This document shows, piece after piece, positions 52,951-58,372 of a DNA stretch of 64,000 bases. Within the stretch, counting starts at the first letter, position 1. The number at the start of each line of letters is the position of its first letter. Source of the stretch: an uncultured Planctomycetota bacterium (GTDB taxonomy: Bacteria; Planctomycetota; UBA1135; GCA-002686595); the NCBI GenBank assembly GCA_903928115.1, contig CAIYPP010000132.1, positions 1 through 64,000 on the forward strand, given 5' to 3'. A program made the translations under genes and the position numbers. The notes below the pieces were generated by a model. That model made no database searches. It was given only the letters and a program-made list of their open reading frames with translations, and was not told the origin of the DNA.

Positions 52951-54741
52951 ATGTCGATCCGCACCCCCCTGAACGTCGTCGCGCTCGCCACACTGGCGCC
53001 GCTCTCCCCGCTCCTCGCCCAATCTGCGCTCGTGACCTACGGCGGGACGACCGCCAGCGCGGAGCTCGGACGGGCGGTGTGCTACGCGGGGGACGTCGAT
53101 GACGATGGCTGGCCGGACTTCGCCGTGGGTGAGCCCGGCTACAACGGCGGCGCGGGACGCGTGGTGCTGCGTCGCGGCGGCTACGTCGCCACCGGACAGG
53201 GGGCCGCGTATCTGTATGTCTTCGACGCGCCTGCGGGAGTGTCCGGGATGGGGCATGCGTTGCTCGGCGGCGTCGACTGCAACGCGGATGGCATCGAGGA
53301 CCTGTGGGTCGGCGCACCGGGCTGGAACGCCACCGACCGCGGCCACGTGCTCTTCATCCCGGGCACTCAGACGGCGAACTTCAAGTCGCAGATCGGGCCG
53401 GTCGGCGGGCGCTGGGGCTGGAGCTTCGCGCACCTCGGCAACGTCGACGGCGACATCTACCGCGACGTCGCCATGGGGCTGCCCTACGACGATACGAACG
53501 GGACGGACGCCGGCGCGGTGATCGCGATGAGGGGCGGCTTTTTCGCGGTGCCGGGCTACCCCTTTTCGGTGTACACGCTGCTCGGCAACCAAGCGGGGTC
53601 GCTGTTCGGTCACGCGGTCTCGACGAGCGACCTCAACTTCGACGGCCGTGATGACGTGCTCGTCGGCGCGCCGTCGCAGGACAACCTCTTCGCGGCCAAC
53701 TCGGGGCGCGTCGTCGCCTTCGACGGTCTCTCGCGCGCGCAGGTGTGGAGCGTGAGCGGAACCTTCGGGGAAGAGCTCGGCTACGCGGTCGCCGGCGGGT
53801 TCGACTTCGACGGCGACAATCGCTCCGACATTTTCGTCGGCAGCCCCGCGTCGGACGTGGCCGCGACGGACGCGGGGCGCGCGACGATGTACTCCGGGGG
53901 TGCTGCGGCCTCGGGGCAGGTCTCGGTGGTCTTTCAGGTGAACGGGGTGGGCGCGACGGCGGGCTTCGGAACCTCTCTCTCGTTCATCGGCGACGTCAAC
54001 GTCGACGGCCGCGTGGATGTCGCCGTCGGCGCACCGGGGCTCGACCCTACGCCGCTCACCCCCAACGCGGGCGCGGTGTACGTCTACTCGGGCGAGACGC
54101 GCGAGCGACTCGGGTTTCGACTCGGCGGCATCGGCGACCGTTACGGCGAGCGAGTGGCGAGCCTGACGATCTTCCCGTTCCAGCTCGGCAACCTGCTGAA
54201 CGGGGATCTCGACGGAGTCGCGGGACCGGAGTTTCTCGTCGGCTGTCCGCGCTCGAACGACTTCGCCAGTGACGGTGGCAAGCTCGACGTGCTGCGCCTC
54301 TATCCGGTGACTCCCGTCGTGTACTGCACGGGCAAGGTGAACAGCGCCGGCTGCGTTCCGAGCCTGCAGGTGCAGTTCGGGACGCCGGATGTCACGCCCG
54401 GCCCGGTGCAGCCGTTCCAAGTCCGCGTCGTGAACCTGCTCAACCAGAAGAACGGGCTCTTCTTCTACGGGCTCCGCGCGAGCGCGACGGCATTCCAAGG
54501 CGGCACGCTGTGCGTCGGTTCGCCGACGAAGCGCACGATCACGCAGGGCTCGGGCGGGAGCGCGAGCGGCAACGACTGCACGGGGACGATGCTCTACGAC
54601 TTCAACGCGCTCGCGGCGGCTGGCATCGACCCGACGCTCGTCGGCGGTCAGGAGGTCTTCACGCAGGCGTGGTCGCGCGATCCGGCAAGCCCGAGCACGA
54701 CGAGCCTGTCGAACGCGATGCGCTTCGTGTTCGCACCCTGA
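52951..54741 (+). CDS. Exported FG-GAP seven-repeat protein with C-terminal Cys module
   Basis: A 596-residue protein with a signal peptide (~24). Seven FG-GAP/Ca-binding repeats are visible between ~40 and 450: D-V-D-D-D-G-W-P-D-F-A-V-G, C-N-A-D-G-I-E-D-L-W-V-G, N-V-D-G-D-I-Y-R-D-V-A-M-G, D-L-N-F-D-G-R-D-D-V-L-V-G, D-F-D-G-D-N-R-S-D-I-F-V-G, D-V-N-V-D-G-R-V-D-V-A-V-G and D-L-D-G-V-A-G-P-E-F-L-V-G. Seven such repeats are expected to form a closed beta-propeller. Residues 458-596 are a module with four conserved Cys, beginning Y-C-T-G-K-V-N-S-A-G-C and ending L-S-N-A-M-R-F-V-F-A-P, also found in the two DNRLRE proteins nearby. The module could help in export, folding or surface attachment (inference). 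Confidence 0.88.
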   Translation: MSIRTPLNVVALATLAPLSPLLAQSALVTYGGTTASAELGRAVCYAGDVDDDGWPDFAVGEPGYNGGAGRVVLRRGGYVATGQGAAYLYVFDAPAGVSGMGHALLGGVDCNADGIEDLWVGAPGWNATDRGHVLFIPGTQTANFKSQIGPVGGRWGWSFAHLGNVDGDIYRDVAMGLPYDDTNGTDAGAVIAMRGGFFAVPGYPFSVYTLLGNQAGSLFGHAVSTSDLNFDGRDDVLVGAPSQDNLFAANSGRVVAFDGLSRAQVWSVSGTFGEELGYAVAGGFDFDGDNRSDIFVGSPASDVAATDAGRATMYSGGAAASGQVSVVFQVNGVGATAGFGTSLSFIGDVNVDGRVDVAVGAPGLDPTPLTPNAGAVYVYSGETRERLGFRLGGIGDRYGERVASLTIFPFQLGNLLNGDLDGVAGPEFLVGCPRSNDFASDGGKLDVLRLYPVTPVVYCTGKVNSAGCVPSLQVQFGTPDVTPGPVQPFQVRVVNLLNQKNGLFFYGLRASATAFQGGTLCVGSPTKRTITQGSGGSASGNDCTGTMLYDFNALAAAGIDPTLVGGQEVFTQAWSRDPASPSTTSLSNAMRFVFAP

Positions 54742-54747
54742 GCGTGC

Positions 54748-56049
54748 TCAGCGGACGGCGCGCACCTTCGCGCCGTTCTTGTTTGCGTTGGTGGACTTTG
54801 CCACCTCCGTGAGCGCCGCCTTGAGGTCCGCGATGATGTCGCTCGGACTCTCGAGGCCGATCGAGAGCCGCACCGCGCCGCCCTGCTTGCCGTAGGAGCT
54901 GTGCGTCATGCTCGACGGCAGCTCGATCAAGGTCTTCGTGTGGCCGAGCGAGACCGCGAGCGTCACCGAGTACGCCGAGCGCGCGAGCGAGTCGATGAAC
55001 GCCTCGGGCTCGACCTGCGCGGGATCGAGCTCGAAGTAGATCATGTTGCCCGGCGCGAAGTCGCCGTCGAAGTCGAGCAGCTGGCGCTCGGCAAGCTCGC
55101 GCTGCGGGAAGCTCGGGAGACCGGGGTAGCTCACGCGCGCGACGCACGGCTGCTTCTCGAGCCACGTAGCGACCTTGCGTGCCGTGAATTGCTGGCGCTT
55201 GAGGCGCAGCGCGAGGGTCGGCAGGCCGTAGACGAGGATCGCCCATGCGGCCTTCGACGACAGGATGCCGCCGAAGTCCTTGCGGTAGAGCAGGAGCCGC
55301 GCGTGCATCGACTTGGGGCAGATCACCGCGCCGCCGAGCTCGGTGCCGAAGCCGCCGAGGTTCTTGGTGAGCGAGTGCAGCACCACGTCCGCGCCCAGCG
55401 CGAGCGGACGCTGGCCGAAGGGCGTCGCAAAGGTGTTGTCGATGAAGATCAGCAACTTGCGGTCCTCGCTGCGGCCTGCGTTGAGCTCGTCGATGAGCTT
55501 GCGCAGCGCGCGAACGTCGATCAGCTCCAGCGTCGGGTTGACGGGGGACTCGAAGTACAGCACACGCGTGCGTTCGGTCACCGCCGCGCGCACGGACGCG
55601 AGTGCGTTCATGTCGACCCGCTTCACCGTGATGCCTTGGCGCGGATACCAGTTCTGGAAGAGCGAGTGCGTGCAGCCGTAGAGAACGGGGTGCGCGATCA
55701 CTTCGTCGCCGCTCACGAGTGTGCAGCCGAGTGCCGCGGAGATGGCGGCCATACCGGACGCGAAACTCACGCAGCTCTCACCCTGTTCGATCTCCGCGAG
55801 CTCGCCTTCGAGGATCGAGCGCGTCGGTTCGTCGAGGCGATCGTAGATGTAGACCGGCGTCTCGCCGACGTCGGTGACGAGCTGGCCGAACTCCTGAAAG
55901 CCGCGCGCACCGCGCTTGGCGGAGTCGAGCCGATAGGTGGTGGAACTCGAGAGCGGCGGCGTGACGTGGTGCGAGAAATCCCACTTCGCCGAGTGCTCGG
56001 GGCCGTGGACGAGGCGGGTCGTGACCTTGTACTGCTGCTTCTTCGTCAT
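54748..56049 (-). CDS. Cys/Met metabolism PLP-dependent enzyme (cystathionine gamma-synthase family)
   Basis: A 433-residue fold-type I PLP enzyme. The Schiff-base lysine is in [12 protein letters not shown], and S-F-A-S-G-M-A-A-I and D-N-T-F-A-T-P are family segments. Such enzymes act on O-acyl-homoserine, cystathionine or related sulfur amino acids; which reaction applies cannot be set. GGAGA lies 6 nt before the ATG. It is convergent with the FG-GAP gene, with 6 bp between the stops. No other methionine genes are nearby. The protein is somewhat longer at its N terminus than usual. Confidence 0.9.
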
Positions 56050-56146
56050 GGCTTCTCCGGCTCGGGACGCATGGCCCCAAGCTAGAGAATGTAGACCATC
56101 CCGAAGGTGCGCCGCTCCTACGAACAGCTGCGCACGCGGGCCGACG

Positions 56147-57247
56147 TCACGGTTGCAGCGTGAAGCGCACCGCGTCGCTCGTGAGGAACGAGCCGAGCGG
56201 GTTGCTGGGGTCGCGCAGGTGCCACTGCGCGTGCACGACCGCGCCGGGCGTGAGGCGCGGATCGATTCCGCTGCCGACGCGTGCATGAACGTCGAAGCTC
56301 GCGGCGCCGGAGCAAGGTAGGAACCCGCCGCCGCTCGTCGTCGTCACGGCGCAGCGCGTCAGCGGCGGCGCGATGCAGAGCGTCCCGCCGAGGAACGGCG
56401 TCGATGCGGGGCCGGAGAGCGAGTACACGAGCGACGCGGCGCGCTGCTGCGGAGCCTGCGAGACGCTCACCACGAATGCCGCTGCGGGACTCGAGCTCGG
56501 ATAGCCGCTCCATCCGATCGCAGGTGCGCAGCCGCTGCTCGACACGCGAGCGACGCAGTAGGTTCCGACGACGGGCGGTGTGAAATCGACGATCAGCGTC
56601 GGCCACTCCGCGGGATCGAGCGACTCGCGCGTGCCGAACACCTTGGTCGTCTGCGAGACGTTCTCTGCATCGAGCTTGAGCAGCCAGCCGAAGTTCGTGG
56701 CGGGCGCGTCGAGCCAGCTCTGCACGTCGGACACGGCCTGCGGCGTCGAGGGCCACGTGTGCAGTCCGAGCTGGTCGACGGCGAGTACGGTGCTCACCGT
56801 AGAAGAGAAGTCACCGCCCGCGGTGCTCCACGGGCTCCCCGGATAGAAGCGCTGTAGCCACGTCGCATCGCCCGGTTGCGCGGGGGCGCCCTGCCCGCTC
56901 GCCGTGTTGGACGCGCCCTCGCCCCAGTCCGCCAACACGCGGTGCACGCGCACGTTGCGCGGTCCGACGTTGCCGGAAGGGTTTGCCAGCACGAGCTGTG
57001 CCGAGTGGATCACCGATCCGGCGGGGAGCGCCGCTGCGAGGTCGAAACGCACCAGTCCGCGGCGAATCGGCGCGGTCGACGTGCCGCCCGAGCGTCCGAC
57101 GATCATCACCGGCCCGGAGCCGTTGGAGATCGCTCCCGCCGCGTCGTTCCAAAGGGTGTTGTCACGCACCGCCGTGAGGTGGAGGACGTCGGCGCTCGCG
57201 GCTGTGCACAGCAGAACGAGCGCCCCGAGGACGGCGGGGCGGAACAT
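56147..57247 (-). CDS. Exported DNRLRE-domain protein with C-terminal Cys module
   Basis: A 366-residue protein, a tandem paralogue of the one upstream. A signal peptide ends near Ala-Ser-Ala (19). Residues ~21-225 are a DNRLRE-type beta-sandwich (R-D-N-T-L-W-N-D at the start, R-R-G-L-V-R-F-D-L and L-A-D-W-G-E-G later). Residues 230-366 are the C-terminal module, starting Y-C-V-A-R-V-S-S-S-G-C and ending D-A-V-R-F-T-L-Q-P. It diverges more from the common module than the paralogue does, having an extra Cys near its end. It starts 18 bp after the paralogue's stop. Function unknown, likely cell-surface or secreted. Confidence 0.85.
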   Translation of the reverse strand: MFRPAVLGALVLLCTAASADVLHLTAVRDNTLWNDAAGAISNGSGPVMIVGRSGGTSTAPIRRGLVRFDLAAALPAGSVIHSAQLVLANPSGNVGPRNVRVHRVLADWGEGASNTASGQGAPAQPGDATWLQRFYPGSPWSTAGGDFSSTVSTVLAVDQLGLHTWPSTPQAVSDVQSWLDAPATNFGWLLKLDAENVSQTTKVFGTRESLDPAEWPTLIVDFTPPVVGTYCVARVSSSGCAPAIGWSGYPSSSPAAAFVVSVSQAPQQRAASLVYSLSGPASTPFLGGTLCIAPPLTRCAVTTTSGGGFLPCSGAASFDVHARVGSGIDPRLTPGAVVHAQWHLRDPSNPLGSFLTSDAVRFTLQP

Positions 57248-57265
57248 GGCGGCAGGAGGGGTGGG

Positions 57266-58372
57266 CTAGGGGTAGATGTAGAAGCGCAGCGCGTTCGAGA
57301 GGTTCGTGGTGAACGTGGAGGCGGGATCGCGGCTCCAGTACTGCGCGCAGACGAGGCGGCCGATCGAGAGCTGTGGGTTCACGCCCGACGCGATCAGGAC
57401 ATTGAAGTCGAAGCTGAAGCTGCCGGTGCAGTCGTTGGCGGGGCTCGCGCTGCCGCCGGAGTTCTGCGCGACGGTGCGCTGGATCGGCGCCTGCACGCAC
57501 ATCGTGCCGCCTTGGAAGGGGGCGGCCGCCGGGCCGACCGTGCCGTAGAAGAGCAGTCCCGCCTTCTGGTTCAGCGTGTTCGAGAGCGTGATCGGAAAGC
57601 CCGAGCCCGCGTTGAAGTCGGCGCTGCCGGTCGAGCCGATCGCGGGCAGGCAGCCGAGGCTGTTGATCTTGGAGGTGCAGTACGCCGTCGGAGCGGGCGG
57701 CGTGTAGGTCACGATGAGCTGCGGCCGGTACTGGGCGAGGCTCTCTCGGGTCTCGAACTGCTTCGCGGACTTCGCGCCGCCCTCGGGACCGCGCAGGATC
57801 CAACCGAAGTTCGTGCTCGGGCTGTTCACCCACGACTGCACGTCCGCGACGAGCTGCGCGGTCGACCCCCACGTGTAGTACTGGTAGGTCGATCCGATGC
57901 TCAGCGAGGCACTGGCCGTGGCGTCGAAGTCGCCGCCCGGCGTCGTCCAGAACTGGTTGTTGTAGAAGGTGTGCAGCCAGGTCGGGTCCCCGGTCTGCGC
58001 GCTGTTGCCGTTGCCCGAGAAACCGACGGTCGGCCCTTCGTTCCAGCCGCGCGTGAGCTTGTGCAGCGTGAAGGTCTTCGCGCCGACGACCGTCTTCGTC
58101 ATGTAGAGCTTGACCTGCACGCTCGTCACCGTGGAGCCCGCGGGGACGGCCGAGACGTCGAAGGCCACCATGGCGCGGCGCATGGGCCACGTCGTGTTGG
58201 CGCCGGCCTGGCCTGCGTACATGGTGAAGCCCTTGCTGTCGCAGCGGTTGCCGACGGTGTCGTTGTAGATCGTCGCGTCCTTGCTCGAGGTGAGCGTGAC
58301 GACGTCGGCGCGCGCGGGGAGCGCGAGCAGGGCGAGGAACGGGAGGAGAAGGGCGGAGATGCGGGGGCTCAT
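57266..58372 (-). CDS. Exported DNRLRE-domain protein with C-terminal Cys module
   Basis: A 368-residue protein, first of a tandem pair. A signal peptide ends near Ala-Arg-Ala (22). Residues ~24-225 are a DNRLRE-type beta-sandwich (S-K-D-A-T-I-Y-N-D, then M-R-R-A-M-V-A-F-D-V and L-T-R-G-W-N-E-G), as in proteins of surface and cellulosome-like systems. Residues 231-368 are the module also on the FG-GAP protein, starting Y-C-T-S-K-I-N-S-L-G-C, with S-R-D-P-A-S and L-S-N-A-L-R-F near the end. It is read before its paralogue, 18 bp away, so they are co-transcribed. Function unknown. Confidence 0.86.
   Translation of the reverse strand: MSPRISALLLPFLALLALPARADVVTLTSSKDATIYNDTVGNRCDSKGFTMYAGQAGANTTWPMRRAMVAFDVSAVPAGSTVTSVQVKLYMTKTVVGAKTFTLHKLTRGWNEGPTVGFSGNGNSAQTGDPTWLHTFYNNQFWTTPGGDFDATASASLSIGSTYQYYTWGSTAQLVADVQSWVNSPSTNFGWILRGPEGGAKSAKQFETRESLAQYRPQLIVTYTPPAPTAYCTSKINSLGCLPAIGSTGSADFNAGSGFPITLSNTLNQKAGLLFYGTVGPAAAPFQGGTMCVQAPIQRTVAQNSGGSASPANDCTGSFSFDFNVLIASGVNPQLSIGRLVCAQYWSRDPASTFTTNLSNALRFYIYP

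Follow-up and report, generated by a model that had tools for sequence, protein, structure and literature searches.

A four-cysteine C-terminal module on unrelated exported proteins of uncultured Planctomycetota, a candidate surface-targeting or retention domain

Several described bacterial systems place one C-terminal element on exported proteins of varied kinds. In Bacteroidota, the T9SS CTD is a beta-sandwich whose last 22 residues are sufficient for export (PMC4804311, PMC5445135) and contain the motifs PxGxYVV and KxxxK (PMC5445135). The PEP-CTERM/exosortase, GlyGly-CTERM/rhombosortase and LPXTG/sortase systems also use a single C-terminal element per protein on varied exported cargo, in their case a short tail with a membrane helix and a basic end. 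Families whose members carry alternative C-terminal anchors are named 'choice-of-anchor'. To our knowledge, the surface placement of enzymes and adhesins in planctomycetes is poorly understood. Here we describe a folded C-terminal module from an uncultured planctomycete and compare it with these systems.

The window, that is the whole stretch of 64,000 nucleotides analysed here (positions 1 to 64,000 of contig CAIYPP010000132.1), belongs to a 4.3 Mb planctomycete draft genome of 160 contigs that is 88% complete. A preliminary description of the window had reported three neighbouring exported proteins sharing a C-terminal four-Cys module behind unrelated N-terminal folds. Re-derivation from the DNA returned the module in all three proteins with the same residue ranges (Table 1), and domain searches likewise bore out the unrelated fronts, FG-GAP (PF01839) in one protein and DNRLRE (NF033679) in the other two. 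In translation, the stop codon directly follows the module in all three, and all three have signal-peptide-like N termini by a heuristic rule. The two DNRLRE genes, a pair of paralogues, lie side by side on the minus strand. Because the FG-GAP gene lies on the opposite strand and is separated from this pair by an unrelated PLP-enzyme-like ORF, the three are neighbouring genes but no tandem triplet.

Table 1. Coordinates of the module proteins in the window and of the loci carrying the 3' element (L numbers are our locus handles).
Feature	Coordinates	Strand	Evidence
FG-GAP protein, 596 aa	52951..54741	+	translation; PF01839 E=2.9e-28
Predicted Sec signal peptide of FG-GAP protein, MSIRTPLNVVALATLAPLSPLLAQ	52951..53022	+	sequence and heuristic; cleavage site inferred
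Four-Cys module of FG-GAP protein, residues 458-596	54322..54738	+	alignment; profile E=9.0e-48
DNRLRE protein 2, 366 aa	56147..57247	-	NF033679 E=7.9e-16, residues 29-220
Predicted Sec signal peptide of DNRLRE protein 2, MFRPAVLGALVLLCTAASA	57191..57247	-	heuristic; cleavage site inferred
Four-Cys module of DNRLRE protein 2, residues 230-366	56150..56560	-	alignment; profile E=3.9e-41
DNRLRE protein 1, 368 aa	57266..58372	-	NF033679 E=3.1e-18, residues 32-222
Predicted Sec signal peptide of DNRLRE protein 1, MSPRISALLLPFLALLALPARA	58307..58372	-	heuristic; cleavage site inferred
Four-Cys module of DNRLRE protein 1, residues 231-368	57269..57685	-	alignment; AlphaFold2 pLDDT 91.4, pTM 0.85
3' element loci, own genome	L228:6907-7560, L224:1-700, L074:7193-7485		
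Other 3' element loci	L107, L117, L120, L121, L148, L150, L151, L161, L179, L182, L239-L241, L257		

The module is about 140 residues long, starts with Y-C-x(2,3)-[KR]-x-[NS]-S-x-G-C and ends with L-x-[ST]-[ND]-A-x-R-F-x3-P or similar before the stop codon, the consensus of its C-terminal end being WxRDPxAPxxTxLSNALxFTxxP. Over the 146 aligned columns of the three window modules, the other two are 54% and 39% identical to the first copy, and 39 columns are invariant, all four Cys among them. Residues R73, Q118, W120 and R122 are near-invariant, as is Y50, and Q118, W120 and R122 alternate on one strand. The module is a family absent from the databases tested: Pfam held no family for it among the matches listed for 67 module proteins (25 of 50 families), and the NCBIfam sorting-domain models matched neither the three window proteins (E<=1) nor 50 further module proteins (single scans, 1e-8; 25 of the 43 NCBIfam families matched by module proteins are listed). 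No published description was found in the open-licence literature.

Restriction to the three window copies, which would have spoken against a general role, is contradicted by 89 places in the source genome that match a single module sequence (best match after self, E=2.7e-44). These are 89 distinct frames, none of which holds two modules. A profile built from 79 copies gave 108 matches in the same genome (E<=0.01), seven of them covering only the last ~22 codons (tail fragments). The module forms the C-terminal end in 82 of the 88 own-genome frames with a known stop, comprising 79 whose stop lies no more than 5 residues from the match and three that end in a full-length profile match. The same holds for every gene with a visible stop (79/79) at 80 loci in named Planctomycetota MAGs, and for 11 of 12 weaker matches that were inspected. 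The twelfth appears degenerate. A degenerate, pseudogene-like module remnant, with 74 unrelated codons behind it, lies at L237:2407-2589. An open frame of 24,335 residues ending in a module (G001:C2:7930-80935; L269-L272) was set aside as an artefact containing 72 kb of masked N.

The remaining 6 of 88 copies are placed elsewhere, all in proteins with signal-peptide-like starts, so that the other adverse outcome, internal copies without an export signal, was not encountered either. Five of the six are paralogues (two were scanned) in which the signal peptide leads into the four-Cys module, with HYR domains and an FGE-sulfatase domain behind it; they are the only group with the module on the N-terminal side. 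Four of these paralogues cluster on one contig, and members of the group lie at L059:675-9765 and L063:1036-2769 in the source genome. In the sixth protein, a metallo-beta-lactamase, the module is internal and precedes a lamin-tail (LTD) domain. Since the FGE-sulfatase paralogues carry the module right behind the signal peptide, it is not always a C-terminal tag.

Export signals were assessed with home-made rules in place of a trained predictor, several misses being frames whose start could not be placed. Under one rule, applied to predicted genes in the regions examined, 55 of 86 module genes have a signal-peptide-like start, compared to 52 of 220 other genes; a separate strict rule, applied to all possible starts, gave 61 of 79 module genes. 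The fronts of 67 module proteins belong to 50 Pfam families, of which the 25 listed include thrombospondin type 3, subtilase, proprotein convertase P-domain, FG-GAP, DUF5122, M28, M10 and M20 peptidases, lectins, GHL10, Rax2, WD40 and PD40. A CocE-type hydrolase also ends in the module. One protein ending in the module has a choice-of-anchor B front (299.6 bits, cut-off 100, residues 59-406 of 845), and another has a choice-of-anchor NxxGxxAF front (136 bits, cut-off 50). These NCBIfam choice-of-anchor families (TIGR04312, TIGR05002) describe front domains, distinct from the module, and their members here bear the module where those of other bacteria bear a known sorting signal.

AlphaFold2 modelling of the DNRLRE protein 1 module with 64 relatives gave a nearly all-beta structure (confidence scores in Table 1), a confident prediction of a beta-sandwich. 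Foldseek retrieved no PDB structure at E<=1e-3 for the modelled module. Its best matches were Ig-like and adhesin domains with a query TM below 0.5, and no T9SS CTD entry was among the 50 best; a sequence search of PDB returned chance-level matches only, mostly antibodies. In the own-genome alignment, with positions numbered after the first row of alignment A2, eight sequences lack both C15 and C89 and one lacks both C6 and C66, single losses being rare or at truncated starts. This covariation makes disulfides C6-C66 and C15-C89 likely.

We consider the T9SS CTD the closest working analogue of the module, by analogy rather than by membership. Both combine a Sec peptide with a C-terminal beta-sandwich, predicted in the case of the module, on unrelated cargo in which peptidases are prominent, and both have conserved last residues. 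However, the CTD has ~75 residues, about half the length of the four-Cys module, whose last 22 residues lack both PxGxYVV and KxxxK and whose six copies outside the C terminus set it further apart. Because these motifs are absent and no C25 peptidase (PF01364) was found in the source genome (88% complete), membership in the T9SS CTD was rejected, the sorting-domain models giving no match for the proteins scanned either. C25 peptidases are present in 8 of the 21 genomes searched. SprA_N (PF14349) was unmatched in 37 genomes, and the control genomes gave no match either. Compared with the short PEP-CTERM, GlyGly-CTERM and LPXTG tails, the module is a folded domain, without a membrane helix, that ends in -FxxxP. 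Exosortase (PF09721) was found neither in the source genome nor in six congeners and exceeded the cut-off in 7 of 21 genomes; PEP-CTERM/exosortase was rejected, as the genus as sampled has no exosortase and the module has no motif, helix or basic tail of this kind. No LPXTG-type tail was seen in the aligned module ends.

Secretins occur in every genome searched, with eight in the window's genome and 4-10 in its relatives. Outside the order, the 2-8 secretins of module-negative planctomycetes compare with 5-12 in module-positive ones. Two secretins of ~900-1000 aa recur as a pair separated by a few kb, in module-negative planctomycetes as well. Since secretins are present regardless of the module, they argue neither for nor against a type II route. 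Among SprA, C25, exosortase and secretin, no co-occurring protease or secretion system was identified: C25, exosortase and secretins do not track the module, the SprA search gave no match in the controls either, and no known sorting system tested accounts for the module.

The distribution agrees with the proposal of a lineage-specific module and extends it. As a broad module alignment yielded no conserved stretch for a search of relatives, a narrower one was used. The Cys form belongs mainly to a single family of uncultured Planctomycetota. Of 61 genomes, comprising the source genome and its near relatives, 38 are matched by the Cys-type profile (1e-5), with 40 to at least 67 matches in most genomes of the family, 0-3 in about a dozen and hardly any in other families of the order. 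Weak matches elsewhere in the order led to a Cys-less version (profile A7) that is homologous to the Cys type (hhalign 98.8%, E=6.8e-17). Like the Cys type, this form is C-terminal (in nearly all of 30 loci read), and many genomes contain from tens of copies to over 100; unlike the Cys type, it lacks the Cys pairs and the W-x-R-D-P signature and is wider in the phylum. In a first sample, profile A7, which also matches Cys-type copies, had hits in each of the 21 genomes, with copy numbers from 5 to at least 150. Across the phylum it matches 78 of 392 genomes, namely all 41 members of the order seen and 37 from other families, the other 314 being negative (the first twenty negatives are listed). 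Pfam has no family match for three Cys-less examples, and the plasmids and viral contigs searched held no module relatives. Cys-less loci (L188-L214) come from the order and from several other planctomycete families.

A structured 3' element together with a duplicated gene tail is present at 18 of the 178 distinct module genes examined, about 10% (Table 1). The element spans ~150 nt with up to four hairpins. More specifically, the W-[FY]-R-D-P codons (TGGTTCCGCGACC) form an inverted repeat with sequence just past the stop, followed by up to three more hairpins, GGCTTACC and a second gene tail. The latter repeats the gene's own last ~66 nt, mostly at 93-100% identity, 191-229 nt downstream. Pairing in the inverted repeat is kept via two-sided changes at three positions, and likewise in hairpin H2; single-strand folding lies far below that of shuffles (z about -7). 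Within 1.39 Mb of regions centred on module genes, 16 of 18 occurrences of the H3 loop fall within 400 nt downstream of a module tail. Among 81 genomes of the family the exact loop is essentially confined to the genus of the window, where a backward-read control found none. Elements without a second tail occur too, and many elements are near contig ends. Rfam gave no match for six loci. Integron attC sites were dropped as an explanation of the duplicated tails, since the arms, judged by eye, misfit the attC core consensus. An unusual duplication process is suspected, or else a mobile element, which may target the conserved codons of the module.

A folded domain that occurs once per protein and exactly at its end, on exported cargo of unrelated kinds and in place of known anchors, is what a sorting or retention domain would be expected to show. 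We therefore favour, with a probability of roughly one in two, the reading that the module is a C-terminal domain for surface targeting or retention, probably a label that addresses proteins to the cell surface. According to this model, the Sec signal peptide would bring the protein to the periplasm, where the module would fold into the predicted beta-sandwich, closed by two putative disulfides, with the ending ...WxRDPxxxxTxLSNAxxFxxxP-stop completing the last strands. A candidate dedicated envelope component would recognise this folded end and move the protein to, across or onto the outer membrane or a surface matrix. The module would then function as the T9SS CTD does, yet as a separate family, apparently without the T9SS parts tested. 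The preliminary suggestion of a sorting, anchoring or export signal is in this way partly supported by the genome-wide occurrence, exact C-terminal position, single copy per protein and choice-of-anchor fronts. The five N-terminal FGE-sulfatase copies and the internal one speak against a strictly C-terminal signal. Counting further against targeting, none of the systems tested emerged as machinery that would read the module, the conserved polar and aromatic set Q, W, R, R, Y also suits a binding site, and secretins are about equally frequent with and without the module.

These six placements are the reason for keeping open a second explanation, which we consider rather unlikely: the module may be a domain that binds a ligand, such as a polysaccharide at the surface or outside the cell, and so retains secreted proteins near the cell non-covalently with no dedicated translocon. 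N-terminal and internal positions in exported proteins are easily accommodated by such a domain, and the predicted beta-sandwich with its near-invariant residues, three of them alternating along a strand, is what it could look like. Binding domains, however, are often repeated and freely placed, whereas the module is single and nearly always at the exact end, and it has no similarity to a known carbohydrate-binding family in Pfam. A good deal less probable is a structural role, with no part in targeting, in which the module would cap repetitive extracellular proteins (propellers, beta-helices) or help them fold and would have spread through duplication and domain shuffling. Many partners are indeed repeat proteins (FG-GAP, DUF5122, Rax2, WD40, PD40), but the module also ends compact enzymes, among them subtilases, peptidases of the M28 and M20 types and the CocE-type hydrolase, and a cap does not require a fixed terminal residue.

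The duplicate tails ~200 nt downstream, with conserved hairpins between, would also fit a family that is mainly the by-product of a mobile or recombinogenic 3' cassette whose hairpin element spreads or duplicates module ends. We regard this as very improbable: ~90% of module genes, the three window genes among them, lack the element, whose H3 loop is essentially limited to one genus, whereas the modules are ancient and divergent. Moreover, the distribution of the Cys type over 61 genomes already points to similar fusions in genera without the element.

Returning to the targeting or retention reading, we tentatively hypothesize that a large part of the Planctomycetota may possess an as yet undescribed system for outer-membrane export or for anchoring at the surface, one that recognises a folded beta-sandwich at the C terminus of its substrates. 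It is equally tentative that such a system would have at least 100 substrates per genome and be functionally parallel to T9SS with unrelated parts. Shared by the ends of about a hundred proteins per genome, the module defines a candidate secretome, and its profile and its occurrence in part of the phylum offer a handle for phylogenetic profiling in search of the missing machinery. Many hypothetical proteins with no other recognisable feature also gain context from it.
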